A stretch of 64,000 nucleotides of DNA from assembly GCA_945860705.1 (NCBI GenBank), contig CAMART010000015.1:1-64000 (forward strand). The letters are read 5' to 3'. Below are positions 1,916 to 20,201 of this stretch, one piece after another. A program made the position numbers and the translations under genes. Source of the stretch: Chitinophaga pinensis. Its GTDB lineage: Bacteria; Bacteroidota; Bacteroidia; Chitinophagales; CAMDFR01. The stretch's first letter is position 1. The number at the start of each line of letters is the position of its first letter. The notes below the pieces were generated by a model. That model did no database searches, was not told the DNA's origin, and worked only from the letters and a program-made list of their open reading frames with translations.

Positions 1916-3229
1916 TTAGTATCTATAGTATTCTGGTTTGAATGGACCTTGTGGAGTCACGCCAATATATTTAGCTTGGTCATCACTCAAAATATCTAAC
2001 TCTACTCCAATTTTAGACAAATGTAGTTGTGCTACTTTTTCATCTAAATGTTTAGGAAGTACATATACTTCGTTGTTATAGTTTTTAGAGTTTTGCCATA
2101 ATTCTAGTTGAGCTAATGTTTGGTTTGTAAATGAATTACTCATTACAAATGACGGATGTCCTGTACCGCAACCTAAGTTTACTAATCTACCTTCAGCTAA
2201 TACGATGATATCTTTTCCATCTACATTATACATATCTACTTGTGGTTTGATAGTATCTTTTGTAGAACCATAGTTTTTATTCAACCAAGCCATGTCTATT
2301 TCATTATCAAAGTGTCCGATATTACAAACAATAGCTTTGTCTTTCATTTTTTTGAAATGCTCACCCGTGATGATATTGTAGTTACCTGTAGCTGTTACTA
2401 CGATATCTACCTCTCCTACTACATCTGCCATTTTTTTCACAGCAAAACCATCCATAGCAGCTTGAAGTGCACAGATAGGATCTATTTCAGTAACAATAAC
2501 TCTAACTCCTGAACTTCTCAATGAAGCAGCTGATCCTTTTCCTACATCACCATATCCAGCAACTACAGCAGTTTTACCTGCCATCATCAAGTCAGTAGCT
2601 CTTCTGATAGAATCTACTAAAGATTCTTTACAGCCATATTTGTTATCAAATTTTGATTTTGTAACTGAATCGTTAATATTGATAGCTGGCAAAGGCAATT
2701 TTCCTGCTTTTTGTCTTTCGTATAATCTATGAACTCCAGTTGTAGTCTCTTCAGATATACCTCTGATATCTGCTACTAATTCTGGATATCTATCCAATAC
2801 CATATTTGTCAAATCACCGCCATCATCCAAAATCATGTTTAAAGGTTTTCCACCTTCAAAAGCAAATATAGTTTGCTCAATACACCAATCAAATTCTTGC
2901 TCATTCATACCTTTCCAAGCATATACAGGAATACCTGCTGCTGCGATTGCTGCTGCTGCGTGATCTTGAGTAGAAAATATATTACATGAAGACCAAGTAA
3001 CTTCAGCACCTAGCTCTTTCAATGTTTCTATCAATACTGCAGTCTGAATAGTCATGTGTAAACATCCAGCTATTCTAGCTCCTGCAAGAGGTTGTGTTTT
3101 TCCAAATTCTTGTCTAAGTGCCATCAAACCTGGCATTTCTGCTTCTGCTAAACGGATTTCTTTTCTACCCCATTCAGCTAAAGCCATATCTTTTACCTTG
3201 TAAGATAATTTTGTGTCAACTGTACTCAT
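1916..3229 (-). CDS. ahcY: Adenosylhomocysteinase (SAH hydrolase)
   Basis: Reversibly hydrolyses S-adenosylhomocysteine to adenosine and homocysteine, keeping the methylation cycle running. At 437 residues it is full length. Visible hallmarks: [16 protein letters not shown] near the N-terminus, [15 protein letters not shown], the NAD-binding [13 protein letters not shown], and the conserved C-terminal tail ending in PEYYRY (PxxYRY). It has its own promoter and a strong terminator, so it looks monocistronic. It is divergent from the cobalamin-riboswitch operon, which is suggestive because B12 and the methyl cycle are linked, but no riboswitch is seen on the ahcY side. Confidence 0.97.
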
Positions 3230-3263
3230 AATTTATTTTTTTTAATTGATTTTTAATCGGATG

Positions 3264-3271
3264 CAAAAATA
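3264..3271 (-). promoter_or_regulatory. ahcY promoter -7 box
   Basis: On the minus strand reads TATTTTTG, an exact TAnnTTTG match, 34 nt before the ahcY ATG. Confidence 0.55.
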
Positions 3272-3281
3272 TAGCAATTTT

Positions 3282-3315
3282 TTTGAATAATATAATGTAA
3301 AATCGAATAACTTTG
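3282..3315 (+). promoter_or_regulatory. Promoter of the cobalamin operon
   Basis: TTTG at 3282-3285 and TAACTTTG at 3308-3315 match the Bacteroidota -33 and -7 elements with a 22-nt spacer. The predicted transcription start (about 3322) coincides with the 5' edge of the riboswitch. Confidence 0.6.
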
Positions 3316-3321
3316 TCCCGT

Positions 3322-3500
3322 TAAGGTTCTTAAACGAATAATAGGGAATTTAGTTTAAATCTAAAACTGTACCCGCAGCTGTAATTCAATTTTTGTGTAG
3401 CTATAGATGCACAAAGTTTTTTAGCTCTACATATCCACTGTCAAGTGCACAATGATGGGAAGGATGCTAAAAATTTGAAGAGTCAGAAGACCTGCCTTAG
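3322..3500 (+). ncRNA. Cobalamin riboswitch
   Basis: The conserved cobalamin-aptamer landmarks occur in order: AAGGTTC, then ATAGGGAATTTAG, CTGTACCCGCAGCTGTAA, ATCCACTG, GATGGGAAGG, and the B12 box AGTCAGAAGACCTGCC at 3481-3496. It sits between a promoter and a BtuG-like/BtuFCD operon. In the known class adenosylcobalamin or a related cobalamin represses the downstream genes. A weak AT-rich hairpin at about 3556-3574, followed by T-rich DNA, could be the expression platform; this part is uncertain. Confidence 0.92.
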
Positions 3501-3610
3501 CAATCATGATGTGTATGTGTGTCGGGAAAAACACCTAAACATGATGTAACGACGGTTATTATTTGTTATAATAATTGTGGTTTTTATTTAATTTTATACA
3601 AACAAAAAAA

Positions 3611-5146
3611 ATGAAAAACGTTTTACGTGATGCTTTGGCTATAGCATGCTCAATAATAGCTATGAATTCTTTTGCTCAAAATTCTTATAAAGGCTGTATA
3701 GTGTCTGAGGGCAATAACTTTGGCGCTCCAGGCAATATGGTGAAAATGGCGCACTACTACCCTATCGAAAAGAAATATATTTATTTCGATTCCTTAGCTG
3801 GCGACTTCACCAATGAAGTTTTGTGTGACAAAGCTTACACATATATTCATGTAGGTAATATAGATGCATCAAAAGATTCAGTTTATAAATATGATAGTAA
3901 ATGTCATACTAGATTGAATTCCGTCCAAATTTCTGGATTTCAAAGAATGAAAACTACATCTACTAAACTAATCGCTAGTAAAGGATATGGTGCAGATAGT
4001 AACTATATAGAAATATTTGATAAGAATTCTTTGGTGAAATTGGCTACAATTACGGAAGTAGATCAAGAGTGCAACGGCATTGCTATTAATGGAAATACTG
4101 CATACGTTGCAGTAAATGGCTCTTGGCCAACTTATACTGATAGTGGCACTGTAGCAGTTATAGATATGGCTACAAATAGTTTTGTTAAGTTCATAAAATT
4201 AGATACGAATGCTAAAGTTGTAAATAGGGTTTATTCTATTGGAAATTTTCTATACTGCGAATGCGATTTTGATAAAATAGTCGAGTATAATCTTAGTACT
4301 GATTCATTCATGATTTATCCTGTTGGTGGCATACAAAATACAATTGGTCTATACGGAAACTATATAGGAATAGCTACATACACCAGTATACTTGCATGGG
4401 ATATCACTACTCATACTTCATTAGTTGTTGATTCCTATTTTGGTGATGTGAGCGAATTTAGAGTGAATCCTTTAAATTATGCAAACAGACCAGTGATATA
4501 TAATGATTATTTTAATGGATATGGCGTATTTATGAATACCTTGCCTACCTCTAAAATTGATTCGTTTTTAATTGGTATTGGCAGTGTTTTAGATATTTTA
4601 ATTGATTCAAATAGTGCACCTATATCTGCTAATTATGTTGTTAATTTAGTAAGAGATAACGATACGAATTTTGTTGTAAACTATAGTGATGCTGATGCTT
4701 GTGAAAGGTTAGTTACAAAAATAGTAGCTGGACCAAATAGAATCGGTGCATCAGCAAATCTAGATAGTATGGGTAATTTTAGTTATACCCCTGCTACAGG
4801 ATTAGTAGCTGCTGATACAGTGAGTATAGCAATATACGATATAGCTGGCGATAGTAGCATTTCTAAAATATTTATAAATGTATTTGATCCATTGAATATT
4901 AACGAATTTAATGAAATCTCATTTAGTTTTTACCCTAATCCTAGTAGTGAATATATTAAAATCGAGATGGATAATGCAAAGGATTATTCACTTGACATAT
5001 TAGACTTAATAGGTAATATTGTGATTTCTAAAAATCAAATTGTAAGTAATATCGTAGATATCACTTCATTAAATTCTGGAATGTACTTATTGAGAATCAC
5101 AGACAATAAAGGAAAATCTACTACTAAGAAATTTTATAAAAACTAG
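3611..5146 (+). CDS. BtuG-like beta-propeller surface protein with T9SS sorting domain
   Basis: About 511 residues. A signal peptide ends in NSFAQ. The body (about residues 25-330) consists of repeated short strands with phrases such as GTVAVIDMATNSFVKFIKLD and ECNGIAINGNTAYVAVNG, typical of YncE/DUF5074-like seven-bladed propellers; BtuG, the high-affinity B12 surface protein of Bacteroides, has this fold. A cadherin/Ig-like stretch follows, and the last about 80 residues (SFYPNPSSEY ... LNSGMYLLRITDNKGKS) form a T9SS type A sorting domain. So it is inferred to bind corrinoids at the surface after T9SS export, rather than as a lipoprotein. It is the first gene after the riboswitch. Start chosen at ATG 3611, which gives a clean signal peptide; an in-frame start at 3575 adds 12 unlikely residues. 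Confidence 0.72.
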   Translation: MKNVLRDALAIACSIIAMNSFAQNSYKGCIVSEGNNFGAPGNMVKMAHYYPIEKKYIYFDSLAGDFTNEVLCDKAYTYIHVGNIDASKDSVYKYDSKCHTRLNSVQISGFQRMKTTSTKLIASKGYGADSNYIEIFDKNSLVKLATITEVDQECNGIAINGNTAYVAVNGSWPTYTDSGTVAVIDMATNSFVKFIKLDTNAKVVNRVYSIGNFLYCECDFDKIVEYNLSTDSFMIYPVGGIQNTIGLYGNYIGIATYTSILAWDITTHTSLVVDSYFGDVSEFRVNPLNYANRPVIYNDYFNGYGVFMNTLPTSKIDSFLIGIGSVLDILIDSNSAPISANYVVNLVRDNDTNFVVNYSDADACERLVTKIVAGPNRIGASANLDSMGNFSYTPATGLVAADTVSIAIYDIAGDSSISKIFINVFDPLNINEFNEISFSFYPNPSSEYIKIEMDNAKDYSLDILDLIGNIVISKNQIVSNIVDITSLNSGMYLLRITDNKGKSTTKKFYKN

Positions 5147-5147
5147 T

Positions 5148-6341
5148 ATGTATTTTTCAAGAGTAATATGTTATAATAGAGATGTTTTTTGCAAAGCAAA
5201 AAACATCTCTATATTATTTTTTATTATACTGATTTCTTTTGCATCTTGTAAGAAAAAAAAGAAGACTGAAGTTGAGCCAATCAAAAATATTGGCGCAACC
5301 TACTTAAGTTTAAAATACGCTAAAGGATTTGAAGTAAATTACTACAAAGGATATAAGCAAATAATAGTAAAACATCCATGGAAAAATAGTAAAGAATCTA
5401 TCAATTATTTTATATCTAAAGACAGCAGTTTTATACCAAAAACACTTCATACAAATGACATCGTTTTAATAGAACCAATTGATAAAGTAGCTGTTGTATC
5501 TACTACATATCTGAGTTTTTTGGAAATGATAAATAAAGTAAATAATATAAGTGCTATCAGTTATGCCAAATATGTATACTCACCCAAAATACTAAAGCTA
5601 CATAATGAACAAAAAATAAAAGAAATTGGGTTTGATGAAAATTTGAATTATGAAAAACTACTAGAATCCAAATCAAAACTAGTATTTACATATGCTATAA
5701 AACAACCTAAAGACGAAGCAAAACTAAATAGCTTAGATATAAAGCGAGTAATGGTCAGTGAATATTTAGAAGAAACTCCTCTTGCACAAGCCGAGTGGTT
5801 GTTCTTTTTTGCAGCATTTTTTAATGAAGAAGAAAAAGCAAAAGTTTTATTTGATAGTATAGATAAGCAGTATCTAGCCTTACAAAAAGATATAGCTAAT
5901 TTAGAATCAAAACCAACTGTCATGTGCAATCTACCATTTAAAGGAAACTGGTACTTACCAGGCGGGAAAAGTGTAGCAGCAAGATTTATTGAAGATGCTG
6001 GTGGAAAGTATGTATTTAGTGAAAATAATGAATTTGGTGGTGTGAATATTCCATATGAAAAAGCATACGCACTAGCACTTAATGCTGATTATTTTTTACA
6101 TGTAAATAATTGCAAAAACAAAAAAGAACTTACCTCCGATTTCGATGCGATAAAAAACACCAAAGCTTTTAAATCTAATCATATCTATAATAATAATCTT
6201 CGTATCAACAATCAATCTGCTAATGATTTTTGGGAGAGCGGAGTAGCTCATCCAGATTTAGTGCTTAAAGATTTAATAGAAATATTACATGCCAATTCTC
6301 AAAACAATTATTCATCTTTTTATTATCGAAAAATTGAATAG
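5148..6341 (+). CDS. btuF: BtuF-like cobalamin-binding lipoprotein of an ABC importer
   Basis: A 397-residue class III periplasmic binding protein. The hydrophobic segment ISILFFIILISFASC ends in a lipobox cysteine at about residue 34, followed by a lysine-rich linker. Two lobes with the family pattern are visible (TNDIVLIEP...VVSTTYLSFLEMI; PTVMCNLPFKGNWYLPGGKSVAARFIEDAGGKY; final SAND-FWESGVAHPDLVLKDLIEIL). Riboswitch control and adjacent BtuC and BtuD support cobalamin as ligand; iron siderophore is the main alternative. The start ATG is 1 nt after the stop of the preceding gene. The first codons contain a long perfect hairpin (5177-5211). Confidence 0.82.
   Translation: MYFSRVICYNRDVFCKAKNISILFFIILISFASCKKKKKTEVEPIKNIGATYLSLKYAKGFEVNYYKGYKQIIVKHPWKNSKESINYFISKDSSFIPKTLHTNDIVLIEPIDKVAVVSTTYLSFLEMINKVNNISAISYAKYVYSPKILKLHNEQKIKEIGFDENLNYEKLLESKSKLVFTYAIKQPKDEAKLNSLDIKRVMVSEYLEETPLAQAEWLFFFAAFFNEEEKAKVLFDSIDKQYLALQKDIANLESKPTVMCNLPFKGNWYLPGGKSVAARFIEDAGGKYVFSENNEFGGVNIPYEKAYALALNADYFLHVNNCKNKKELTSDFDAIKNTKAFKSNHIYNNNLRINNQSANDFWESGVAHPDLVLKDLIEILHANSQNNYSSFYYRKIE
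5177..5211 (+). terminator. Terminator-like hairpin inside the btuF 5' coding region
   Basis: A perfect 16-bp inverted repeat (5177-5192 with 5196-5211, loop AAA), followed by TATTATTTTTTATT. It has the form of an intrinsic terminator but lies within codons 11-21 of btuF, encoding part of the n-region of the signal peptide. It could cause partial termination after the propeller gene. Confidence 0.6.
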
Positions 6342-7359
6342 AGGTTTTTTTACATATATAATTATATTGTCACTACTTATAGTTTTATTTCTGATTCATA
6401 TAAGTATTGGCAAAGTAAATTTTTCATTAAGTGATTGGTTATTTTTTTTAAATTATAACGAACCAAGTAATGTACTCTTCAATCAAATAATCATATACAA
6501 TAGAATACCAACTGCACTTACAGCAATACTTGCAGGAGGCGCACTTTCTATAAGTGGTATGCAAATGCAAACTCTTTTTAGAAATCCTGTTGCAGGACCA
6601 TTTGTACTAGGTATCAGTAGTGGAGCTAGTTTATTTGTAGCATTGTTTTTAATGAGTACTGCATTTATAGGTATCACTTTTGTAGATTTCCCCATACTTC
6701 AAAACTCTAGTCTAATACTTTTTGCTTTTTTAGGTAGTTTTATTTTTGCATTATTGATTTTGTACATAAGTCGAAAAGTATCGAGTGTTAGCACGGTATT
6801 AATAGTTGGTTTATTACTTAGTGGCATAGCCAGCGCTATAGTTACTTTATTAGAAAGCATTGCTGATAAAAACGCATTGCAAAGTTTTGTTTTTTGGAGT
6901 TTTGGTTCATTTCAAAACTTGAGCTATGGACAGATTTGTATATTCTTTATTGTAATAATTATAGGCATTATTATTTCGCTTTTCACACTAAAATCCTCCA
7001 ATCTTATCCAAATAAATGATGAGTTTGCAAAGCAAAACGGAGTAAACATCAATAAAATAAAAACGCTTTTAATCATTTCTAGTACATTACTTGCTAGTGC
7101 AGTGACTGCATACTGCGGTCCTATTGCATTCATAGGATTAGCTGTGCCTCACTTATGTAGAACATTATTAAAAACCTCCGATCATATAAAATTATATCCT
7201 TTTGTTTTTTTAATGGGCAGTCTCATTTGTCTTTGTTGTTCTGTAATCATCAATTTACCTTTTATAGAAATCAATATTCCTATAAATGTAATTACTAGTA
7301 TTATTGGTGGTCCTTTAGTAATATATATCATACTCAGTAAACCCATTGAATATAGATAG
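6289..7359 (+). CDS. btuC: FecCD-family ABC transporter permease (BtuC-like)
   Basis: A polytopic inner-membrane permease of up to 356 residues with about 9-10 hydrophobic segments. The FecCD hallmarks are GGALSISGMQMQTLFRNPVAGPFVLGISSGAS near residues 80-110 and CGPIAFIGLAVPHLCRTLL in the coupling region. It imports the ligand delivered by the BtuF-like protein. As annotated from ATG 6289 it overlaps btuF by 53 nt; an in-frame TTG at 6334 would shorten the overlap to 8 nt and still leave the first membrane segment intact, so the start is uncertain. Confidence 0.85.
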   Translation: MPILKTIIHLFIIEKLNRGFFTYIIILSLLIVLFLIHISIGKVNFSLSDWLFFLNYNEPSNVLFNQIIIYNRIPTALTAILAGGALSISGMQMQTLFRNPVAGPFVLGISSGASLFVALFLMSTAFIGITFVDFPILQNSSLILFAFLGSFIFALLILYISRKVSSVSTVLIVGLLLSGIASAIVTLLESIADKNALQSFVFWSFGSFQNLSYGQICIFFIVIIIGIIISLFTLKSSNLIQINDEFAKQNGVNINKIKTLLIISSTLLASAVTAYCGPIAFIGLAVPHLCRTLLKTSDHIKLYPFVFLMGSLICLCCSVIINLPFIEINIPINVITSIIGGPLVIYIILSKPIEYR

Positions 7360-7360
7360 T

Positions 7361-8008
7361 ATGAAAATAAACACAATTTCATGTAAGAATATAAGTCTAT
7401 CATTTGATAATAAAAATATCATTAATGACTTTAATGAAGTATTTGAAATTAATACATTATCAGCTATAAAAGGTCTAAATGGTACTGGCAAAAGTAGTTT
7501 ACTAAAACTAATTACAGGATTAAATTCAAATTATTCGGGCAATATTTTTTATGATGATAAAAATATTAATCAATTCTCTAGTAGAGAAATTTCAAATTGC
7601 GTATCGTATGTAGGCACTAGAAATCATTTCACATTTCCAATAAGTGTAGCCGAACTATTAAATACTGGTAGGTATAATTATCAAAATATTTTTGGAAAAA
7701 TAAGTGAATCAGACCATCAAAATATTTTAACAATAGTAGAAGAAATAGGTATAATGGATTTGTATACTAAAAATGTTCAAAATCTGAGTGATGGCGAGCT
7801 TCAACAAGTGATGATAGCTTTAGCATTAGTAAGAGATACTTCATTTATTATTCTAGACGAACCTACATCATTTCTTGATTATAAAAACAGAGAGAAAATC
7901 TGGAATCTGCTTGTAGCTTTAAAAAATAAAGGAAAAGGAATCATAATCGCTTCGCACGATATTTTTGAAATAGAAAAATATGCAGATAGAATTACTGAAC
8001 TCAAATAA
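7361..8008 (+). CDS. btuD: ABC transporter ATP-binding protein (BtuD-like)
   Basis: The ATPase of the cobalamin-type importer, 215 residues from ATG 7361, 1 nt after the btuC stop (an in-frame TTG at 7346 is less likely). Walker A GLNGTGKSS at residues 38-46, signature LSDGE, Walker B FIILDEPTS, and the switch histidine in IIASHD are all present. The domain is short but complete. It is the last clear member of the riboswitch operon; the AlkB-like gene follows after 9 nt and may be read through. Confidence 0.87.
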   Translation: MKINTISCKNISLSFDNKNIINDFNEVFEINTLSAIKGLNGTGKSSLLKLITGLNSNYSGNIFYDDKNINQFSSREISNCVSYVGTRNHFTFPISVAELLNTGRYNYQNIFGKISESDHQNILTIVEEIGIMDLYTKNVQNLSDGELQQVMIALALVRDTSFIILDEPTSFLDYKNREKIWNLLVALKNKGKGIIIASHDIFEIEKYADRITELK

Positions 8009-12171: not shown

Positions 12172-14034
12172 ATGACGAAAAAAATTATTATTTTATGTGC
12201 TTTGTTTTTGGGAATACTTTCTCAATCAAATGCACAATGTACTGGAGCTATTGTTGATTCAGTATGCTTTGCTTCACTTATTGGTGCTGGCGGTGGTATC
12301 TGTAAAGATTCACTTCCAAATGGAATGGCAAATAATTACTATTCTGAAGATGTAAGTTTTGTAATGCCTCCATCTGTAAACATCACTACACCTATTACAG
12401 CTACAGTGACTCTTAGAAGAATAAATATCACAGGCGTAGGTGGTATGCCACTAGGAATTGATTATGCATGTAATAATGGTACTTGTATTTATTTACCTAG
12501 TTCAGGTCAACAACTTGGTGCTATGAGATTTTGTGGTACTCCATTGACTGCAGGGCTTTATACATTGACTGTTTATATTTCTGCAGATGTCACTGTAAGT
12601 GGTATCGGTGATAGAAATGGTGAAGCACAAACCTATACAACTAGACTTAGAATATTACCAGATACAAGTGGTGGCAATGCTACATTTACCCATACACCTG
12701 CTGGAAATAAATATTGTGATACTACAGATATCACATATAATGCAACAATTACTTCATCAAATCCAGTGAAATACAATTGGACATTTGGTAACGGAAATAC
12801 TTCTACACTTCAAAATCCGCCAGCACAAACCTATACTCCTTCTGGTACAGACTATCAAGCCATACTCAATACTACACTCTATTCTTATAGAATCACTAGA
12901 GTACGAGTTCTAGCTACAGATGGTTCTCTATGGAGTGGAGATGTAGGCGAACCTACAACTTTCCTTACTTACCCAGATTTTGTTTTTGCAAATACAACTA
13001 CAGGAAGAGCTACACCTGAAATAGGTAATAATCGAACACCGGATTGGACTGGATTGAGAGATACAATTCCTGTTGGGACTGATTCAATAAGCTTTACGCT
13101 TACAGATATTGATGGTTCGTTATTTGGTCTAGATCCGAATGATTTAGTAGAGGCTGGAAAATTTGGTGTAACACTCGGAACTGTAAACTATATACGTGGA
13201 GGAAACTCACTTCAAATAACTATGGATACGGTACCAACACAAATTTTTAGAGATACATTTACATTTACTGTAAATCCAGCACTTACGTCAGGTATCACTT
13301 CTACATTGATAGATAGTTTTTGTTTCGGTGACTCAACTATTGTATCTGTAAACTACAATGCTACAGATTATACATTGCAGTGGTATAATGATAGTACAGA
13401 AATTCCATTGGCTAATGACTCGTTCATTATATCTTATGGAAATGGCAACTATTATGTGACCATACAAAATAATACTACTCTATGTACTGCTAGTTCTAAT
13501 ATCACTAGTACATATGGTTTTACTGCTCCACCTGCAATTGTAAATATTGTAAATGCAGGGCCAGGACAAATAGCAAATTCAAATTTCCCTGGAGCAGGCT
13601 TTACCATTGAATGGTTTAAAGATGGAGTATTGATACCGGGAGCATCTGGAGTATTATTGACTACTACTGGTGATGGAGTATATACTTGTCATGTATTCAA
13701 TACAGCATTTCCAAATTGCGATGGAACTTCAGGTAACTTTGTTATCACTGGAATCAACGATATAGATAATACACTTGCTACAAATTTAAATATTTATCCA
13801 AATCCAAGTAATGGTAAATTTACTTTATCATTTGAGACATTATCTAATGATAAAGAAGCTACACTTTCTATCAATGATGTGACTGGTAGAGAAGTATATG
13901 CTACTAATCTAAAAATATCGAAAGGTGCAAATCAACTAGAAATCAATGCTAATAATATAGCTAATGGATTATACATAGCTAAATTAAAGGTATCTGGAAG
14001 CACTATTGAAAAAAGATTATTTATAAATAAATAA
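12172..14034 (+). CDS. Paralogous PKD/Ig-like surface protein with T9SS sorting domain
   Basis: 620 residues and the same architecture as the gene before it: a signal peptide ending in QSNAQ, a Cys-bearing start, a PKD-like KYNWTFGNGNTSTLQNP segment, Ig-like FTIEWFKDGVLIPGASG, and a sorting domain NIYPNPSNGKFTLSF ... NGLYIAKLKVSG. The two genes share the phrase NSNFPGAGxTIxWFKDGVxxPGA near the C-terminus, indicating duplication followed by divergence. It is 38 nt downstream, so probably co-transcribed, and a strong terminator follows it. Confidence 0.78.
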   Translation: MTKKIIILCALFLGILSQSNAQCTGAIVDSVCFASLIGAGGGICKDSLPNGMANNYYSEDVSFVMPPSVNITTPITATVTLRRINITGVGGMPLGIDYACNNGTCIYLPSSGQQLGAMRFCGTPLTAGLYTLTVYISADVTVSGIGDRNGEAQTYTTRLRILPDTSGGNATFTHTPAGNKYCDTTDITYNATITSSNPVKYNWTFGNGNTSTLQNPPAQTYTPSGTDYQAILNTTLYSYRITRVRVLATDGSLWSGDVGEPTTFLTYPDFVFANTTTGRATPEIGNNRTPDWTGLRDTIPVGTDSISFTLTDIDGSLFGLDPNDLVEAGKFGVTLGTVNYIRGGNSLQITMDTVPTQIFRDTFTFTVNPALTSGITSTLIDSFCFGDSTIVSVNYNATDYTLQWYNDSTEIPLANDSFIISYGNGNYYVTIQNNTTLCTASSNITSTYGFTAPPAIVNIVNAGPGQIANSNFPGAGFTIEWFKDGVLIPGASGVLLTTTGDGVYTCHVFNTAFPNCDGTSGNFVITGINDIDNTLATNLNIYPNPSNGKFTLSFETLSNDKEATLSINDVTGREVYATNLKISKGANQLEINANNIANGLYIAKLKVSGSTIEKRLFINK

Positions 14035-14108: not shown

Positions 14109-14183
14109 TTTATATATAACAATTAATAATTAAACTATGATAGATAAATAGAGTAAAATTTTATATATATTTGAATTGTAAAA

Positions 14184-14275
14184 GCGAAACAAGTTATTAC
14201 TAAAACATTCGCCAATCTACCCAATTTTGGGTGGATAGGCGAAACTGAGTTTCGCCTATATACAAGTTATGCGTA
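14184..14275 (+). repeat. Left boundary structure of the cassette-like array
   Basis: Alternating complementary segments: GCGAAAC (14184), TTCGCC (14208), a perfect hairpin AGGCGAAAC/GTTTCGCCT (14237-14257), and an imperfect hairpin CGCC...CCCAATTTTGGG...GGCG (14210-14241). ACAAGTTAT occurs twice (14189, 14262). The right edge GTTATGCGTA (14266-14275) is exactly complementary to TACGCATAAC at 17395-17404, the other end of the first cassette. The layout differs from the three full repeats, so this may be an attachment site, or a degraded repeat. Confidence 0.5.
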
Positions 14276-14290
14276 ATATCGACAAACTAA

Positions 14291-14866
14291 ATGAAAATAA
14301 CTTTAGAAGACATAATTCAATCCATTTATTTATTACCTGAACAAGTATTGAAAGAAGTTTTAGGACATTTTCAACATTTGGAATATCCCAAAAACTATTT
14401 TTTACTCAAAGCGGGCAAACCTTGTAAACATCTATGGTTTATGACAAAGGGCGCTGTAAGATACTTTTATATCAATGACCAAGGAAAAGAAAAGAATACT
14501 TGGTTTAGCTTAGATACACAAATTATTGCGGACACTTCAAGTTTTGTAAAACAAGAACCCTCCGAAGAAAGCATTCAGCTTGTGGAAGATAGTGAAATGT
14601 ATTCCATTGAACATGCAGCTTTACAGTCCTTGCTTCAAAAACATCATTCATTTGCTATATGGTATATTAAGTTGGTGGAGTTACATTATGTATCGCAGAT
14701 TGAGGACAGAGTTGCCGATTTGCAATTTCTTGATGCAAAGCAACGTTATCAAAAATTATTAAACCAGTACCCAGACATTACCAACCGAGTAAGTCTTGGC
14801 AACATTGCCTCTTACTTAAACATCACGCAAGAAACATTAAGCCGAATAAGAGCTGGCAAGTTGTAA
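14291..14866 (+). CDS. Crp/Fnr-family transcriptional regulator
   Basis: 191 residues: an N-terminal cyclic-nucleotide-binding beta barrel (about residues 25-115; FLLKAGKPCKHLWFMTKGAVRYFY) and a C-terminal winged helix-turn-helix with RVSLGNIASYLNITQETLSRIR as the recognition region. No cysteine set of an Fnr iron-sulfur cluster is seen. It is the first gene of the array's first cassette, 87 nt before the hydroxylase fusion, which it may regulate. Base composition is less AT-rich than in the flanking chromosome. Confidence 0.87.
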   Translation: MKITLEDIIQSIYLLPEQVLKEVLGHFQHLEYPKNYFLLKAGKPCKHLWFMTKGAVRYFYINDQGKEKNTWFSLDTQIIADTSSFVKQEPSEESIQLVEDSEMYSIEHAALQSLLQKHHSFAIWYIKLVELHYVSQIEDRVADLQFLDAKQRYQKLLNQYPDITNRVSLGNIASYLNITQETLSRIRAGKL

Positions 14867-14953
14867 TCATTTTTTGATATACATCAAAAGTATTCATTAG
14901 TAAACTTCTCAATTTTGTAGTGAAATTATTAATCGCTATTAAATTGAAGTATT

Positions 14954-16765
14954 ATGACTATAACAACGTTTTTTGAAGACATCATTAACGCATTTAGCGA
15001 ACAATTTAGCTGGTATGCAGGATTTGCATTTCCATTTTTTATCATTTTTTGGATAGTTGGTAAAAAATATTTTAAAAAGATAAGAATTCAGGAAACTGAA
15101 AAAGCTAAATTCCATCATTTCAAACATGATCTTGGCTTTTCTGCGAGTACTTTTCTGATTTTTGCAATTATGGATGTTTTCATTCTTTACTTGGATAGCA
15201 AGGGTTACACAAAAGTATATTTTGACATCAATGAGTATGGCTATTTGTGGTTAGGGCTTAGTTTTTTCATTGCACTCTTTATTGACGATATGTTTTTTTA
15301 TTGGAGTCACAGAGCTATGCACTTGCCTCAGTTTTATAAATTTTTCCATAAAGTACATCACGAAAGCACCGACCCATCGCCACTTACAGCTTTTGCTTTT
15401 CATCCTTCAGAGGCTATAGTTGAATACTTTGTAGCCTTTGTATTGCCTTTTTTGCTTCCACTGAATTTTGGAGTATTAATTACCTGGCAAATATTCTCCA
15501 TGCTTAACAATGTCTTAGGTCATTTAGGCTATGAAGTTTATCCCAAAGGTTGGGTAAAACTGCCATTTCTTAAATTCAAAACAGCCTCAACACACCACAA
15601 CATGCACCACCAATTATTTAATGGCAATTATGCCCTATATTTTACATGGTGGGATAAATGGATGGGCACAGAATTTAAAGACTACGAAACCCGCCACGAA
15701 CAAATCTTTGAACGCAAAAATATCATAAAATCAGCCGGAGGTTTGTATTCCCTTACGGTTTCTGATATTAGGCAAGAAGCAAATGAGGCTTTTACGATTG
15801 AGTTTGGCAATGTTCCAACGGTTTTCAGGGATTTTTCGGCAGGGCAACACCTTACTATTAAAGTTAACATCAAAGGCGCAACACTATATCGAACATTTTC
15901 CATTTCTTCAATTCCCAATAAAGATAATTTTCTGACTTTGACAATCAAAAAAATCAAGGCAGGTAAGGTAACCAATTACTTAGCCGAAAATTTGAAAGTA
16001 GGAGATACCTTAGAAGTTACAGCCCCATCAGGGCAATTTTATCTCAATGCTGAACCAGCTAATCAAAAGCATTATGTAATGATTGCAGGCGGAGGTGGTA
16101 TCACACCCATTTACAGTATGATAGGCACTGTTTTGAAATTCGAACCAAAAAGTAAAATTACTTTGCTTTATGCAAATAGGAATTCTACGAGCATAATTTT
16201 CAAGGAAAAAATTGAACAGTGGAAAAATGAATTTTCTACTCAATTAGAAGTCAAATACTTTTTGAGTGAAGAGGAAAATCCTAAAAATGCTATCAAAGGT
16301 TATATCACAAGAATTTCATTAGAAGAAGTGCTGAAACAACATGGTAAAAGCAAATTAGAATTTTACCTCTGTGGCCCAGAAATTATGACCAACATACTGA
16401 TGGCCGATTTGGCATACTTAGGAGTAGCAAAAGATAAAATTCATCGAGAGTTATTTTTAATCACAGCCCAAACTCAAGAAAGTGCTTCCCAAAAAGCACA
16501 AGTTTCTGCAAAAGTATTCGGCAAAACCTATCAATTTGAAACACAAGAAGGCAAAACCATTTTGCAAAGCGGTATAGAGCAAAATGTTCCATTGCCTTTT
16601 TCTTGTCAAAGCGGACTTTGCGGAATGTGCAAAATGAAATGCACTGAAGGCAAGGTAATGATAAAGAATAACCAGGTACTAACCGAAAAAGACATAAAGG
16701 AAGGGTATATACTGACTTGCCAATCGCTTCCTCAAACGAAAGCAATTACAATTAACAATCCGTAA
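14954..16765 (+). CDS. Sterol desaturase-type hydroxylase fused to ferredoxin reductase and ferredoxin
   Basis: 603 residues in three parts. Residues 1-250: an integral-membrane di-iron hydroxylase (fatty acid hydroxylase/sterol desaturase family) with histidine boxes HRAMH (119-123), HKVHH (132-136) and HHNMHH (214-219). Residues about 262-505: FAD/NAD(P)-binding ferredoxin reductase (RTFSISS for FAD, GGGGITP for NAD(P), CGPEIM near the end). Residues about 515-603: a plant-type [2Fe-2S] domain with CQSGLCGMCKMKC and a later CQS cysteine. The protein therefore carries its own electron chain from NAD(P)H to the di-iron site. The substrate is unknown, presumably a lipid or terpenoid. Confidence 0.88.
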   Translation: MTITTFFEDIINAFSEQFSWYAGFAFPFFIIFWIVGKKYFKKIRIQETEKAKFHHFKHDLGFSASTFLIFAIMDVFILYLDSKGYTKVYFDINEYGYLWLGLSFFIALFIDDMFFYWSHRAMHLPQFYKFFHKVHHESTDPSPLTAFAFHPSEAIVEYFVAFVLPFLLPLNFGVLITWQIFSMLNNVLGHLGYEVYPKGWVKLPFLKFKTASTHHNMHHQLFNGNYALYFTWWDKWMGTEFKDYETRHEQIFERKNIIKSAGGLYSLTVSDIRQEANEAFTIEFGNVPTVFRDFSAGQHLTIKVNIKGATLYRTFSISSIPNKDNFLTLTIKKIKAGKVTNYLAENLKVGDTLEVTAPSGQFYLNAEPANQKHYVMIAGGGGITPIYSMIGTVLKFEPKSKITLLYANRNSTSIIFKEKIEQWKNEFSTQLEVKYFLSEEENPKNAIKGYITRISLEEVLKQHGKSKLEFYLCGPEIMTNILMADLAYLGVAKDKIHRELFLITAQTQESASQKAQVSAKVFGKTYQFETQEGKTILQSGIEQNVPLPFSCQSGLCGMCKMKCTEGKVMIKNNQVLTEKDIKEGYILTCQSLPQTKAITINNP

Positions 16766-16770
16766 CTGAC

Positions 16771-17382
16771 ATGAGAACTTTTTTTTTAATGACTATTTTT
16801 TTATTGGTTGGCGCAAACCTTCGTTCCCAAAATGTACTTGAAGTTCTAGCAGGAAATAAACAAGCTCACTACATAAACTATTTCAATAAAGATTTGGATA
16901 GCACTGCCAAATGGAACTTCTTTAATCTTAATCGTTTTACTGTTAATTACAAAGATAAAGCACTAAACAATGTATCTATTGAAGGACAACTTACCTACCA
17001 ATTCAAGCCATGGATAGGACTGTCAGCAGGAGGAGGCTTTTACGGTGAATTATTTGTTCCAACTATTGGGTTAAGTCTTTCTTACATGAACAAAAAAGAA
17101 GACTTTTTTATTCAAATGTACCCAACAATTGGTTTTGCTGAAGGTCAAGTTGCTCCGAGTGTTTTAGGAATCATTGGATACTCACCAAAATTTAGCAAGA
17201 ATTGGGGGCTTTCTTCACAAATAATATTTTCAGCAGATCCTGTTGAAGCATCTCAAATCATAAGGATAGGGGCTAACTACAAAGATAAAGTTCAATTTGG
17301 TATAGGTATAGACATGCTACAAAACTTTGAGACAAAGAATTTAAATTATAACTTAGGACCCTTTATCAGATTTAACTTCTGA
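16771..17382 (+). CDS. Predicted outer-membrane beta-barrel protein
   Basis: 203 residues with a signal peptide (FFLMTIFLLVGANLRSQ) and alternating amphipathic strands ending in a C-terminal aromatic (PFIRFNF), typical of small outer-membrane barrels. It starts 5 nt after the hydroxylase fusion, so it is co-transcribed and may take part in export or uptake of the same substrate; this is inference. No family name is assigned. Confidence 0.65.
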   Translation: MRTFFLMTIFLLVGANLRSQNVLEVLAGNKQAHYINYFNKDLDSTAKWNFFNLNRFTVNYKDKALNNVSIEGQLTYQFKPWIGLSAGGGFYGELFVPTIGLSLSYMNKKEDFFIQMYPTIGFAEGQVAPSVLGIIGYSPKFSKNWGLSSQIIFSADPVEASQIIRIGANYKDKVQFGIGIDMLQNFETKNLNYNLGPFIRFNF

Positions 17383-17394
17383 CGAGAGAGATAC

Positions 17395-17531
17395 TACGCA
17401 TAACACGGGTTTGGCAAAAGTGGCGGTTCAGTGCTCCGCAGACACATTTGTGGTTAATCAAACATTGGTTCTCCGCATCAACATTTGTGGTGCAAATCGC
17501 CACCTTCGCCAAGCCCGAAACCGTTATGGGC
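17395..17531 (+). repeat. attC-like imperfect palindrome A (137 nt)
   Basis: Outer box TACGCATAAC (17395-17404) and GTTATGGGC (17523-17531). Next stem CGGGTTTGGC (17406-17415) with GCCAAGCCCG (17508-17517), 9 Watson-Crick pairs and one G-T. Inner stem GTGGCG (17420-17425) with CGCCAC (17498-17503). The spacer is 1 nt on the left and AAACC on the right. The large terminal loop carries two copies of a module CTCCGCA...CAACATTTGTGGT. It ends the first cassette and starts the second. Confidence 0.8.
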
Positions 17532-17558
17532 AAGTTTAAACAAAAAAACATATAACAA

Positions 17559-18650
17559 ATGACGGACATTGAATTAACCAAAAATGAATTAAAAAAATTT
17601 TTTGAACTAAATAAAACTCTATTAGTTCTTGATACACCATATGAAAAATGGAATGAATCAGCTGTATTATTTTCGAGTAACGATTCTGTCAAAGGGAAAG
17701 TTTATTTTAAAATCAAGACAATAGAATTCAAATTGAAACATAAGGCTTGGATGCCTTACACAATGTCTGGAATAAGAGACTATAATTCAGAGCATTGGTT
17801 CAAAACACCATTAGATATTGTTAAAAATGGAGAGTTTATTTTCCCATCAGATCAAAATGGAAAATTAATCTACGAGCAAATACCATCTCTTTGTTTAAAT
17901 ATAAAAGAAGCTAAGCAAAATTATATGATAGAATGTGAGCGCAAAAGGCAAGAGGAACTTCGTCTTGCTGAATCTAATCGACTTCAAAAATTGTCCTCCA
18001 ATAAATCTCAGGTGTTATTCGATTTAGATAAAAACAATGATGGCAATGTCGATTTAATAGAAAATGATTTCAATAAACTTTTAAATAAAAACCAAAAAAC
18101 AATTCTTGGTGTAGATTCAAAATACATACATCAATTTGTTAAGGTTTCTAATTTCATCAAAACAAAAAAACAAAATACACAAAAGATTTTCGAGTCAATT
18201 CGAGATACGAGTACACAAGAAGAGTTAGAAGAAAGAGTAGCTCTATTAAAAAATCAAATACACTCCTATGAGCTTTTGGTATTTCACTCGATAAATATGA
18301 TTGGCGCCCTCGTTTCAGAAGACTTAATTACATTCTATGAAATATATGAATCCTTTGACAAACTTGGAATGTTCAATTCAAATTGGGAAAACGAGGTGTC
18401 AGAAAAGCTTACAAATATTGGTGATAAACTAGATGATTTAATGCAATCAATATACAATATGGAACAAAATATCGTGAGTGAATTAAGTCATTTAAGTTAT
18501 GTTACACAAGAATCTTTTGAGGATTTGAATAGATCAGTAACAAGTCAATTAAGAGAAGTAGAATCTTCAATAAACACCAATAATTTATTGACTGGTATTC
18601 AGACTTATCAGTTGTATAAGATTAATAAGAATACAAAGGGAATAAGATAA
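17559..18650 (+). CDS. EF-hand-like, coiled-coil protein of unknown function
   Basis: 363 residues and no signal peptide, so cytosolic. Residues 1-115 form an unrecognised domain; a helical linker follows; a calcium-binding-like loop DKNNDGNVDLIE lies near residue 157; the C-terminal half (about 210-350) is strongly helical with coiled-coil heptads (LEERVALLKNQIHSYELL, TNIGDKLDDLMQSIYNMEQ). Its partner, an HNH nuclease gene, starts 4 nt after its stop. The pair occupies one cassette of the array. A defence role is possible but unproven. Confidence 0.6.
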   Translation: MTDIELTKNELKKFFELNKTLLVLDTPYEKWNESAVLFSSNDSVKGKVYFKIKTIEFKLKHKAWMPYTMSGIRDYNSEHWFKTPLDIVKNGEFIFPSDQNGKLIYEQIPSLCLNIKEAKQNYMIECERKRQEELRLAESNRLQKLSSNKSQVLFDLDKNNDGNVDLIENDFNKLLNKNQKTILGVDSKYIHQFVKVSNFIKTKKQNTQKIFESIRDTSTQEELEERVALLKNQIHSYELLVFHSINMIGALVSEDLITFYEIYESFDKLGMFNSNWENEVSEKLTNIGDKLDDLMQSIYNMEQNIVSELSHLSYVTQESFEDLNRSVTSQLREVESSINTNNLLTGIQTYQLYKINKNTKGIR

Positions 18651-18654
18651 TAAT

Positions 18655-19119
18655 ATGGAAACTGCCGAACTAGATCGTTTAACAAACCTTTTTTATAGCT
18701 TCAAACAAAGAGGTGAAAGACATTTTTCAAAAAAAGAGTTTTTAAATTGGTATTCTGCAAATATAGATTTAGGATGCTATTACTGTGGTTTAGAAATCGA
18801 AACTCAAATTAGTATTATTGAAAGTGGTAAACTAAGTTCAAACCGTTTCTTCACTTACAAATACAAAAACAAAAGTGGGGTAGAAAAATATGGTACTCGA
18901 GGTAAATCTTTCGAAGTAGACAGAAAAAACCCTAAAGGACCTTATTCATCAAGCAATTGTGTACTATGCTGTTATTTTTGCAATAATGATAAAAGCGATG
19001 TTTTTATCTCCGAACAATATTTAAAATTCATAGGCGGAAATAAAGAAAACAAAAAAAACAACCCTCGATATATATACTTAAAATCATTACTGGATAATTT
19101 AAAGCATAAAAATAAATAA
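18655..19119 (+). CDS. HNH-type endonuclease
   Basis: 154 residues. A CYYCG zinc knuckle (about residues 42-46) and a second CCYFCNNDKSD knuckle frame the core EVDRKNPKGPYSSSNCVLCC, the usual spacing of HNH nucleases (xxDRxxP...Y...N...CxxCNxxK). The first histidine of the classical motif is replaced here by Glu/Val before Asp. It probably cuts DNA. It lies 4 nt after the EF-hand/coiled-coil gene, the two forming a two-gene unit. Confidence 0.75.
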   Translation: METAELDRLTNLFYSFKQRGERHFSKKEFLNWYSANIDLGCYYCGLEIETQISIIESGKLSSNRFFTYKYKNKSGVEKYGTRGKSFEVDRKNPKGPYSSSNCVLCCYFCNNDKSDVFISEQYLKFIGGNKENKKNNPRYIYLKSLLDNLKHKNK

Positions 19120-19124
19120 ACCCC

Positions 19125-19154
19125 GCCCATAACAGCGATTACAAATAATTTGGC
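19125..19154 (+). repeat. Truncated attC-like repeat
   Basis: GCCCATAAC (19125-19133), a single A, GCGATT..., then TTTGGC at 19149-19154 resembles only the left half of the full repeats. The right arm with GTTATGGGC is missing. The box is nevertheless complementary to GTTATGGGC at 17523, the start of the same cassette. Confidence 0.6.
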
Positions 19155-19175
19155 AAATAAAAATAGACTTAAACA

Positions 19176-19466
19176 ATGGACATACTTACATTAGCAGGTT
19201 TAACCCTTAATACCATTGGTTCAGTATTCTTGGCTTTTTCATTAAACAGAACGACTAAAATGCTTAACACTTCTGTAACTGCTTTGGAGCACTACAAAGA
19301 TACATATTTAAGTGGTGGTGACGTTCTATCCTTCACTGGAATCGATATTCATAGAAATAGAGCTTTAAAAAATTCACGAATTCTGACAAATATCGGGGTG
19401 ACACTTTTAATATTGGGTTTTGTATTGCAAATTATCAGCTTGACAACAAACCAAACCAGCCCATAA
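19176..19466 (+). CDS. Small two-helix membrane protein
   Basis: 96 residues: membrane helix 1 (ILTLAGLTLNTIGSVFLAFSL), a polar loop of about 45 residues, and membrane helix 2 (ILTNIGVTLLILGFVLQIISL). No family is recognised. The stop codon TAA (19464-19466) lies inside the outer box GCCCATAAC of the following repeat, so gene end and repeat are fused, as in compact gene cassettes. Confidence 0.6.
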   Translation: MDILTLAGLTLNTIGSVFLAFSLNRTTKMLNTSVTALEHYKDTYLSGGDVLSFTGIDIHRNRALKNSRILTNIGVTLLILGFVLQIISLTTNQTSP

Positions 19467-19594
19467 CAGGCGTTTGGCTCAATGGCGGGTGACGTGGTTA
19501 ATTGAACATTCTACCTCGCACCAACTTTTGTGGTGTATTGACAGTTTTGTGCTCCGAAATCCGCCACTGCGCCAAGCGCCAAACCGTTATGGGC
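19459..19594 (+). repeat. attC-like imperfect palindrome B (136 nt)
   Basis: Outer boxes GCCCATAAC (19459-19467) and GTTATGGGC (19586-19594). Stem GGCGTTTGGC (19469-19478) with GCCAAGCGCC (19571-19580). Inner stem TGGCGG (19483-19488) with CCGCCA (19561-19566). Spacers are 1 nt left and AAACC right, the same geometry as repeat A. The terminal loop holds GTGGTTAATTGAACATT, ACCAACTTTTGTGGTG and TTTTGTGCTCCG. Confidence 0.82.
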
Positions 19595-19735
19595 AAGTTT
19601 AAAATACATAGCGGTTCAAAGTAGGCTGACCACCTAAAGTGACAGACAAAAAAGTGGAGACATGAAAACCACTCTAAAAACAGGGAGTATTCTGAAAATC
19701 CATAAGAGTAGGAACAAAATTTAAAAAATAATAAA

Positions 19736-20056
19736 ATGTGTAAAATTTACAGTGGTTCTTCGGGATATACCGTTGTTGCAAGAGTCGAAAATGGTAAAGT
19801 TTATAGCGGATCGTCTGGATATAATGTTATTGCTCGCATTGATGGGACAAAAATATATTCAGGTTCTTCAGGTTATACAGTTTTAGCCCGTGTAGATGGT
19901 GAAAAAATATACAGCGGATCTTCTGGCTACAATGTTATTGGTAGAATCGATGGTCTAAAATGTTATTCTGGTTCTTCTGGGTATACAGTAGCAGCAAGAA
20001 ATGAAGGTTGTGGCGGAATGAGTTTTGCAGCAGGTGCCGCAGCTGCAGCTTTGTAG
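19736..20056 (+). CDS. 18-residue tandem-repeat protein (beta-flower-like)
   Basis: 106 residues, composed of five near-identical 18-residue units, [IV]YSGSSGY[TN]V..AR.[DE]G.K, which alternate T and N at the tenth position, followed by an Ala/Gly-rich tail (GGMSFAAGAAAAAL). No signal peptide. The regular beta pattern fits small propeller-like 'beta flower' proteins known from Bacteroidota as I recall, or a short beta solenoid. Function unknown. It is the only gene of its cassette. A 141-nt leader separates it from repeat B. Confidence 0.72.
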   Translation: MCKIYSGSSGYTVVARVENGKVYSGSSGYNVIARIDGTKIYSGSSGYTVLARVDGEKIYSGSSGYNVIGRIDGLKCYSGSSGYTVAARNEGCGGMSFAAGAAAAAL

Positions 20057-20063
20057 ATAACCA

Positions 20064-20201
20064 GCCCATAACAGCACATTGGCGGATATGGCGGGTGCAG
20101 TGGTAATTAGAACATCTGTGCTTCTAAAGAATTTTAGTGGTAAATTGATAGTTCAATGCTCCTAAGTCCGCCACATCGCCAATCTGCAAAACGTCAGGCT
20201 G
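20064..20201 (+). repeat. attC-like imperfect palindrome C (138 nt)
   Basis: Outer box GCCCATAAC (20064-20072). Stem GCACATTGGC (20074-20083) with GCCAATCTGC (20178-20187). Inner stem TGGCGG (20089-20094) with CCGCCA (20168-20173). Spacers are 1 nt left and AAAAC right. The right box is GTCAGGCTG (20193-20201), not GTTATGGGC, so the last site of the array has a different junction. The terminal loop shares GTGGTAATTAGAACAT and GTTCAATGCTCC with the other repeats. Confidence 0.78.

Follow-up and report, generated by a model that had tools for sequence, protein, structure and literature searches.

Integrons, both mobile and sedentary, combine a gene for a tyrosine recombinase (IntI), an adjoining attI site and gene cassettes that each end in a palindromic attC site, and outside the bacteria considered here they spread antibiotic resistance. 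An insertion specific to IntI is held to be defining and essential (PMC9668308, PMC8138268) and is described as an additional domain around patch III (PMC9668308, PMC8138268, PMC2426708). Searches for integrons require this insertion, and judged in this way Bacteroidota possessed hardly any. With IntegronFinder 2.0 a single complete integron was reported from Bacteroidetes, in Salinibacter ruber, and before that only In0, an integrase without attC (PMC9024848). Bacteroidota are counted among the integron phyla in reviews (PMC8618304), and an older survey that chose its sequences by the IntI patch includes the Bacteroidetes/Chlorobi group (PMC2426708). Here we analysed a cassette array in a 64,000-nucleotide stretch of Chitinophaga pinensis DNA, the window, which is part of contig C15 in a genome of 46 contigs (positions 1 to 64,000 of CAMART010000015.1, assembly GCA_945860705.1). 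Our results make it very likely that the array belongs to an integron-like gene-capture system of Bacteroidota that uses a tyrosine recombinase other than IntI. This system is integron-like in its working and lies outside integrons by the criteria of integrase and core. We found no description of it in the open-access literature, a search that leaves out most subscription papers and all preprints.

Folded sites and cassette ends

The initial annotation of the window described three long repeats as attC-like palindromes. Their coordinates and fold are as it gave them, with a paired outer box, spacers of 1 and 5 nt, a stem of about 10 bp and a GGCGG/CCGCC stem. We used seven sites from this genome as the input of a covariance model (A2/R1), which yielded 87 sites in 23 stretches. 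When these sites were aligned, the 17 pairs of the two stem helices were 94–97% paired and compensatory change was found at every pair, which bears out the compensating change first noticed among the three repeats. The covariation score was 0.600 as compared with 0.160 in shuffled alignments and 0.05–0.08 in slid ones. Across 133 sites, left AAC and right GTT were mostly 115–121 nt apart, the left spacer was A in 99% and the right spacer ended in C in 97%. This very constant length and the 1-nt and 5-nt spacers set the sites apart from those of integrons, and so does the core. It had been claimed that the core box departs from the integron core GTTRRRY/RYYYAAC, and indeed the consensus is GTTRNNNGNNA and just 7 of the 133 right boxes fit GTTRRRY. 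No Rfam family covers the sites. Like those of integrons, they are imperfectly palindromic and form hairpins. The repeats are attC-like recombination sites and may act as folded single strands.

The most informative detail is found in site A. Its left box TACGCATAAC is unlike its own right box GTTATGGGC and matches GTTATGCGTA at 14266, where its own cassette begins. In integrons, the left box of a cassette forms with the cassette's own start while the cassette is circular. Among 56 consecutive pairs from 16 loci, the left box matched its own cassette start at a mean of 6.21 of 7 positions versus 3.18 of 7 for its own right box, and it was closer to the cassette start in 52 pairs, closer to the right box in 1 and tied in 3. 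A similar result was obtained with independently fetched loci (5.4 versus 2.4 matches, with 22 pairs against 4 favouring the cassette start). The left box is complementary to the start of its own cassette, as it is in integrons. Cassette insertion requires this pattern, whereas repeats that are merely palindromic would give the opposite one.

The cassettes are many and diverse, as in integrons. We delimited 95 of them, with a median of 1183 bp, in which 137 open reading frames (ORFs) were co-oriented versus 17 opposed. The 93 cassette proteins examined matched 91 Pfam families, none of which occurred in more than 3 proteins. Restriction enzymes and methylases were prominent among them (EcoRI, DpnII, AlwI, Eco57I), and RloB, AAA_21 and reverse-transcriptase proteins and one protein of streptomycin-adenylyltransferase type were also present.

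To survey genomes we used a threshold of E ≤ 1e-4; the E-values of the model are rough, and site counts per genome are lower bounds. Sites were found in 180 of 395 Bacteroidota genomes (about 46%) and in 98 of 171 genera. They lay at several dispersed places within one genome, and in the order to which the window belongs counts went up to 39 sites per genome. No sites were found in any of 200 genomes of Pseudomonadota (the phylum of a Sphingobium), used as a control, or in any of 17 genomes outside Bacteroidota that encode relatives of the recombinase described below.

The attI-like module and the linked recombinase

An attI-like module heads the array in the window. The genome has five copies of it, on contigs C15 (the window), C13, C20, C12 and C1 (14163–14268 in the window, L014:5620–5735, L015:10530–10640, L162 ~7440–7540 and L163 ~2030–2145), each followed by cassettes with a matching first box. 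When aligned, the five copies are conserved from TATATTTG through ATATA(C/T)AAGTTA. A recombinase gene lies beside the C20 copy only, and the other four have no integrase. On C20 a tyrosine recombinase gene (L015:9349–10386) is followed by a near-copy of window 14163–14268 and then by cassettes, one of which holds a regulator and hydroxylase pair similar to that in cassette 1 of the window. A degenerate tandem copy of the module precedes the module at the integrase. On C1 there is a single cassette (L163 = G000:C1:134000-147000, 2109–7010) with what is by its sequence a complete Type III restriction-modification pair (mod 2387–4150, res 4155–6740), flanked by the attI-like module and one attC-like site.

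To examine linkage we collected 82 loci that were picked by similarity of the recombinase protein alone and searched them with a model (R2) trained on earlier sites. Of 61 sites, 60 were downstream of the recombinase gene and on the same strand. We called attI where a GTT 40–145 nt past the stop codon shared at least 6 of 7 positions with the left box of the first site. By this measure attI was located in 19 of 32 loci; swapped boxes gave 1.2%, and a count of 19 was not attained in any of 2000 permutations. The attI site adjoins the recombinase gene, as it does in integrons, and is typically 77–133 nt past the stop codon. Unlike in integrons, gene and array are co-oriented here and attI lies past the 3' end of the gene. 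The sequence preceding the attI GTT is typically of the type ATATAAACRA. TAnnTTTG is the Bacteroidota –7 promoter element. Of 21 other loci, 11 had it in the gap that separates the stop codon from attI, as compared with 1.2 expected (1 on the minus strand). Judged by its sequence and position, this box is a candidate cassette promoter and may correspond to the promoter Pc that integrons have near attI.

Two Chryseobacterium plasmids, obtained in the same way as the loci above, differ at this site. NZ_CP041688.1 and NZ_CP094530.1 are about 86–90% identical across the backbone and the integrase (about 90% through the integrase), and the alignment ends at ATAAACAAGTT, locus position 13151 in both, right after ACATATAAACAAGTT. 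The DNA beyond is unrelated. Cassette exchange at attI predicts just such a divergence at the attI GTT. NCBI names one of the plasmid copies of the recombinase 'site-specific tyrosine recombinase/integron integrase', a broad name also given by the XerA-type model NF040815. IS110-family elements and group II introns target attC in classical integrons; on NZ_CP041688.1 (L069:16299–20700) one element of each kind lies beside attC-like sites with identical right flanks.

The recombinase differs from IntI in several ways. Nearly all array-linked recombinases with both motifs have 65–66 residues between KGxKxR and HxxRH (70 in one), versus 107 in both IntI1 and the IntI of G021 and 71–74 in Bacteroidota Xer. 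Because of this difference in spacing we conclude that the IntI-specific insertion is absent, and its absence is also seen directly in the alignment. The integron integrase model TIGR02249 matched in two pieces, with 192 bits as compared with a cut-off of 265. In a tree, Xer proteins of the same order formed a separate clade (99/92) and three IntI sequences formed their own (99/99). Array recombinases as one clade were not rejected (approximately unbiased (AU) test, p 0.16), and an exclusive clade of array recombinases with IntI was rejected (AU p 0.006) in this tree, which included only these three IntI and left deep branches unresolved. A quick tree that placed IntI inside the array group was set aside, since the tree above, built with care and with more outgroups, disagrees.

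By sequence, the best solved relative is XerA (5hxy), and the fold and the catalytic motifs are like those of XerA, XerC and XerD. The array recombinases differ from these proteins in forming a separate clade, in having an SPxDxL tail and an N-terminal domain, and in being linked to cassette arrays. TnpF, a simple tyrosine-recombinase transposase of Acinetobacter plasmids, is 48% identical over the catalytic part, but the match is restricted to residues 79–345 and does not cover the N-terminal domain. This domain consists of about 60 extra residues predicted to fold as a compact beta-beta-alpha-beta-beta-alpha unit, and a search detected it in all but one of 32 array-linked proteins (31) but in no Xer or IntI tested. 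Its best match was the HARP domain of SMARCAL1 (4o66), both by profile (E 0.029) and by fold (E 0.38, not significant). Pfam HARP was found in 3 of 15 proteins (best 7e-4), and in a search of 60 genomes the top HARP match directly preceded the recombinase core of G034 within one open frame, at a score below the curated cut-off. Matches were below that cut-off in all 60 genomes, and a family-level assignment to HARP was not reached. The domain is thus tentatively described as weakly HARP-like. HARP binds forked DNA and therefore a role of the N-terminal domain in the recognition of hairpin sites is an attractive, though unproven, idea. One family member (L106:10001–11020) is on a contig labelled Candidatus Undinarchaeales archaeon, through either transfer or mis-binning.

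Alternative explanations and a proposed mechanism

It is improbable that the array is what remains of a canonical integron, reduced to a cluster of attC sites that has no integrase nearby (CALIN), with standard attC sites and a standard IntI that was lost or lies elsewhere in the genome. The logic of GTT crossover, hairpin sites and unidirectional cassettes is shared with such clusters, and a relative from the same order does encode a true, insertion-bearing IntI (L018:3295–4542; G021:C40; 422 bits), but that genome has none of the sites described here. The motif spacing, the core, the clade separation and the AU test led us to reject the canonical IntI reading, and the site model matches no genome of the Pseudomonadota control. 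The label CALIN, which the initial annotation had used, fits in that the window has an attC cluster with no integrase nearby. It is only partly right because an attI-like module, which would not be expected of a CALIN, heads the array and the genome holds a candidate integrase on another contig.

We also give little credence to the idea that a recombinase of another family assembled the cassettes and that the linked one, for instance a Xer-like resolvase, is a mere neighbour. The family is found without detectable sites too, and, as noted, the solved structure nearest to it in sequence is XerA. However, linkage, constant orientation and near-constant attI spacing hold over many taxa, Xer of the same order are in a separate clade, and the plasmids diverge at attI beside an array-linked recombinase gene. 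Least probable is that these are dispersed structured repeats (repetitive extragenic palindromic (REP)- or miniature inverted-repeat transposable element (MITE)-like, or transcription terminators) that lie by chance between co-oriented genes; they are strongly palindromic and present at several places in the genome, but they do not show the pattern of such repeats, whose arms are complementary all along and stand in no fixed relation to gene boundaries. Their outer boxes match across the cassette rather than the hairpin in both locus sets, their polarity relative to the recombinase is strict and the plasmids diverge at the attI GTT. A MITE/REP-like dispersal with no genes gained or lost at the GTT boundary, which had been named as a refutation, was not what we found.

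Several observations weigh against an integron-like system with its own recombinase. More than half of the recombinase loci have no R2 site, including same-genus copies in G001 and G003; some family members may therefore act otherwise or have sites that the model missed. These two same-genus recombinases (L016, G001:C45, and L017, G003:C49) are beside a murQ-like gene with no site nearby. Divergence at attI was seen in one pair of plasmids. The DNA of cassette 2 has no substantial match among 298 other genomes of the order. Finally, tblastn found no recombinase relative in the window, in agreement with the earlier statement that it holds no integrase, so that the locus itself has none. The description as an integron-type cassette array is nonetheless strongly supported by cassette-end matching, orientation, attI, the linked recombinase and the plasmids that diverge at attI.

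In the integron-like system that we propose, circular cassettes would be recombined by a tyrosine recombinase that is about 350 residues long, lacks the IntI insertion and has a DNA-binding-like domain at its N terminus. Each cassette would have one hairpin attC-like site of about 136 nt, with the crossover at the GTT that is common to attC and attI. Cassettes would enter at attI in a single orientation, beside the promoter-like TAnnTTTG box, and arrays would extend onward from the gene's 3' end with the same orientation as the gene. The array in the window is one of several with attI and cassettes and no integrase, on which the recombinase of C20 probably acts in trans. Of this scheme, the structure of cassettes and sites, the linkage and orientation, the position of attI and the plasmid divergence at its GTT were observed. 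The linked recombinase is the putative catalyst, the box near attI may function as a promoter and the N-terminal domain may have the role suggested above. For the putative recombination of attI with attC and of attC with attC by the integrase the evidence is comparative, namely the plasmid divergence. A more far-reaching version is possible, though somewhat doubtful: the system may have arisen independently, when a tyrosine recombinase other than IntI acquired a structure-specific, HARP-like DNA-binding domain that replaces the IntI insertion and recognises folded hairpins, and it may be a major route of cassette exchange in Bacteroidota.

If the integron-like reading is correct, nearly half of the sampled Bacteroidota genomes, by the survey figure given above, carry cassettes of an overlooked system, plasmids included. 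Defence genes, such as those for restriction-modification, are frequent in these cassettes, and a gene of streptomycin-adenylyltransferase type is present in at least one. Two open questions would become testable: what a recombinase needs to act on folded DNA, and whether integrons have had more than one origin.

Features of the array in the window

The features of the array are listed in the table.

Table. Features of the cassette array, with positions in the window
Feature	Positions	Strand	Basis
attI-like module: candidate promoter, two short hairpins, crossover GTT (14266–14268)	14163–14268	+	Own-genome alignment; first cassette begins at crossover GTT
TATATTTG, candidate cassette promoter, matches Bacteroidota –7 box TAnnTTTG	14166–14173	+	Sequence
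Cassette 1, Crp-type regulator	14291–14866	+	Pfam cNMP_binding 1.2e-12
Cassette 1, fatty acid hydroxylase fused to FAD/NAD/2Fe-2S reductase	14954–16765	+	Pfam PF04116, PF00970, PF00175, PF00111
Cassette 1, ORF 203 aa, no family	16771–17382	+	Pfam search
attC-like site A; right box GTTATGGGC opens next cassette; left box matches 14266, start of its own cassette	17395–17531	+	
Cassette 2, ORF 363 aa, no family	17559–18650	+	Pfam search
Cassette 2, ORF 154 aa, without Pfam match; visual inspection shows CxxC pairs	18655–19119	+	
Truncated attC remnant: left box GCCCATAAC and a few bases	19125–19160	+	
Cassette 2b, ORF 96 aa; stop codon within left box of site B	19176–19466	+	
attC-like site B	19459–19594	+	
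DUF805 RNA (RF03081), cis-regulatory candidate, leader of cassette 3	19649–19718	+	cmscan 67.9 bits, E 2.5e-10
Cassette 3, 6-fold beta flower protein	19736–20056	+	Pfam PF21786 3.5e-16
attC-like site C, end of array; right box degenerate (GTCAGGC)	20064–20201	+	

The truncated remnant suggests that a deletion fused two cassettes. The genes of the array had been said to differ in composition from the flanks, and here the difference is only slight (34.1% GC in the array versus 31–32% in the flanks, with 46–52% in the sites themselves). In G002, from the same genus, the orthologue of the gene upstream of the array has a different gene after it, and no array is seen before the contig ends. A DUF805b RNA is present at L060:72–104 on another contig with an array. 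The idea that DUF805 RNA is a common cassette leader was dropped, since a further 139 kb gave a single DUF805b; these motifs may be part of mobile cassettes. Elsewhere in the window there is a Cobalamin riboswitch (3307–3513, + strand, 79.7 bits).

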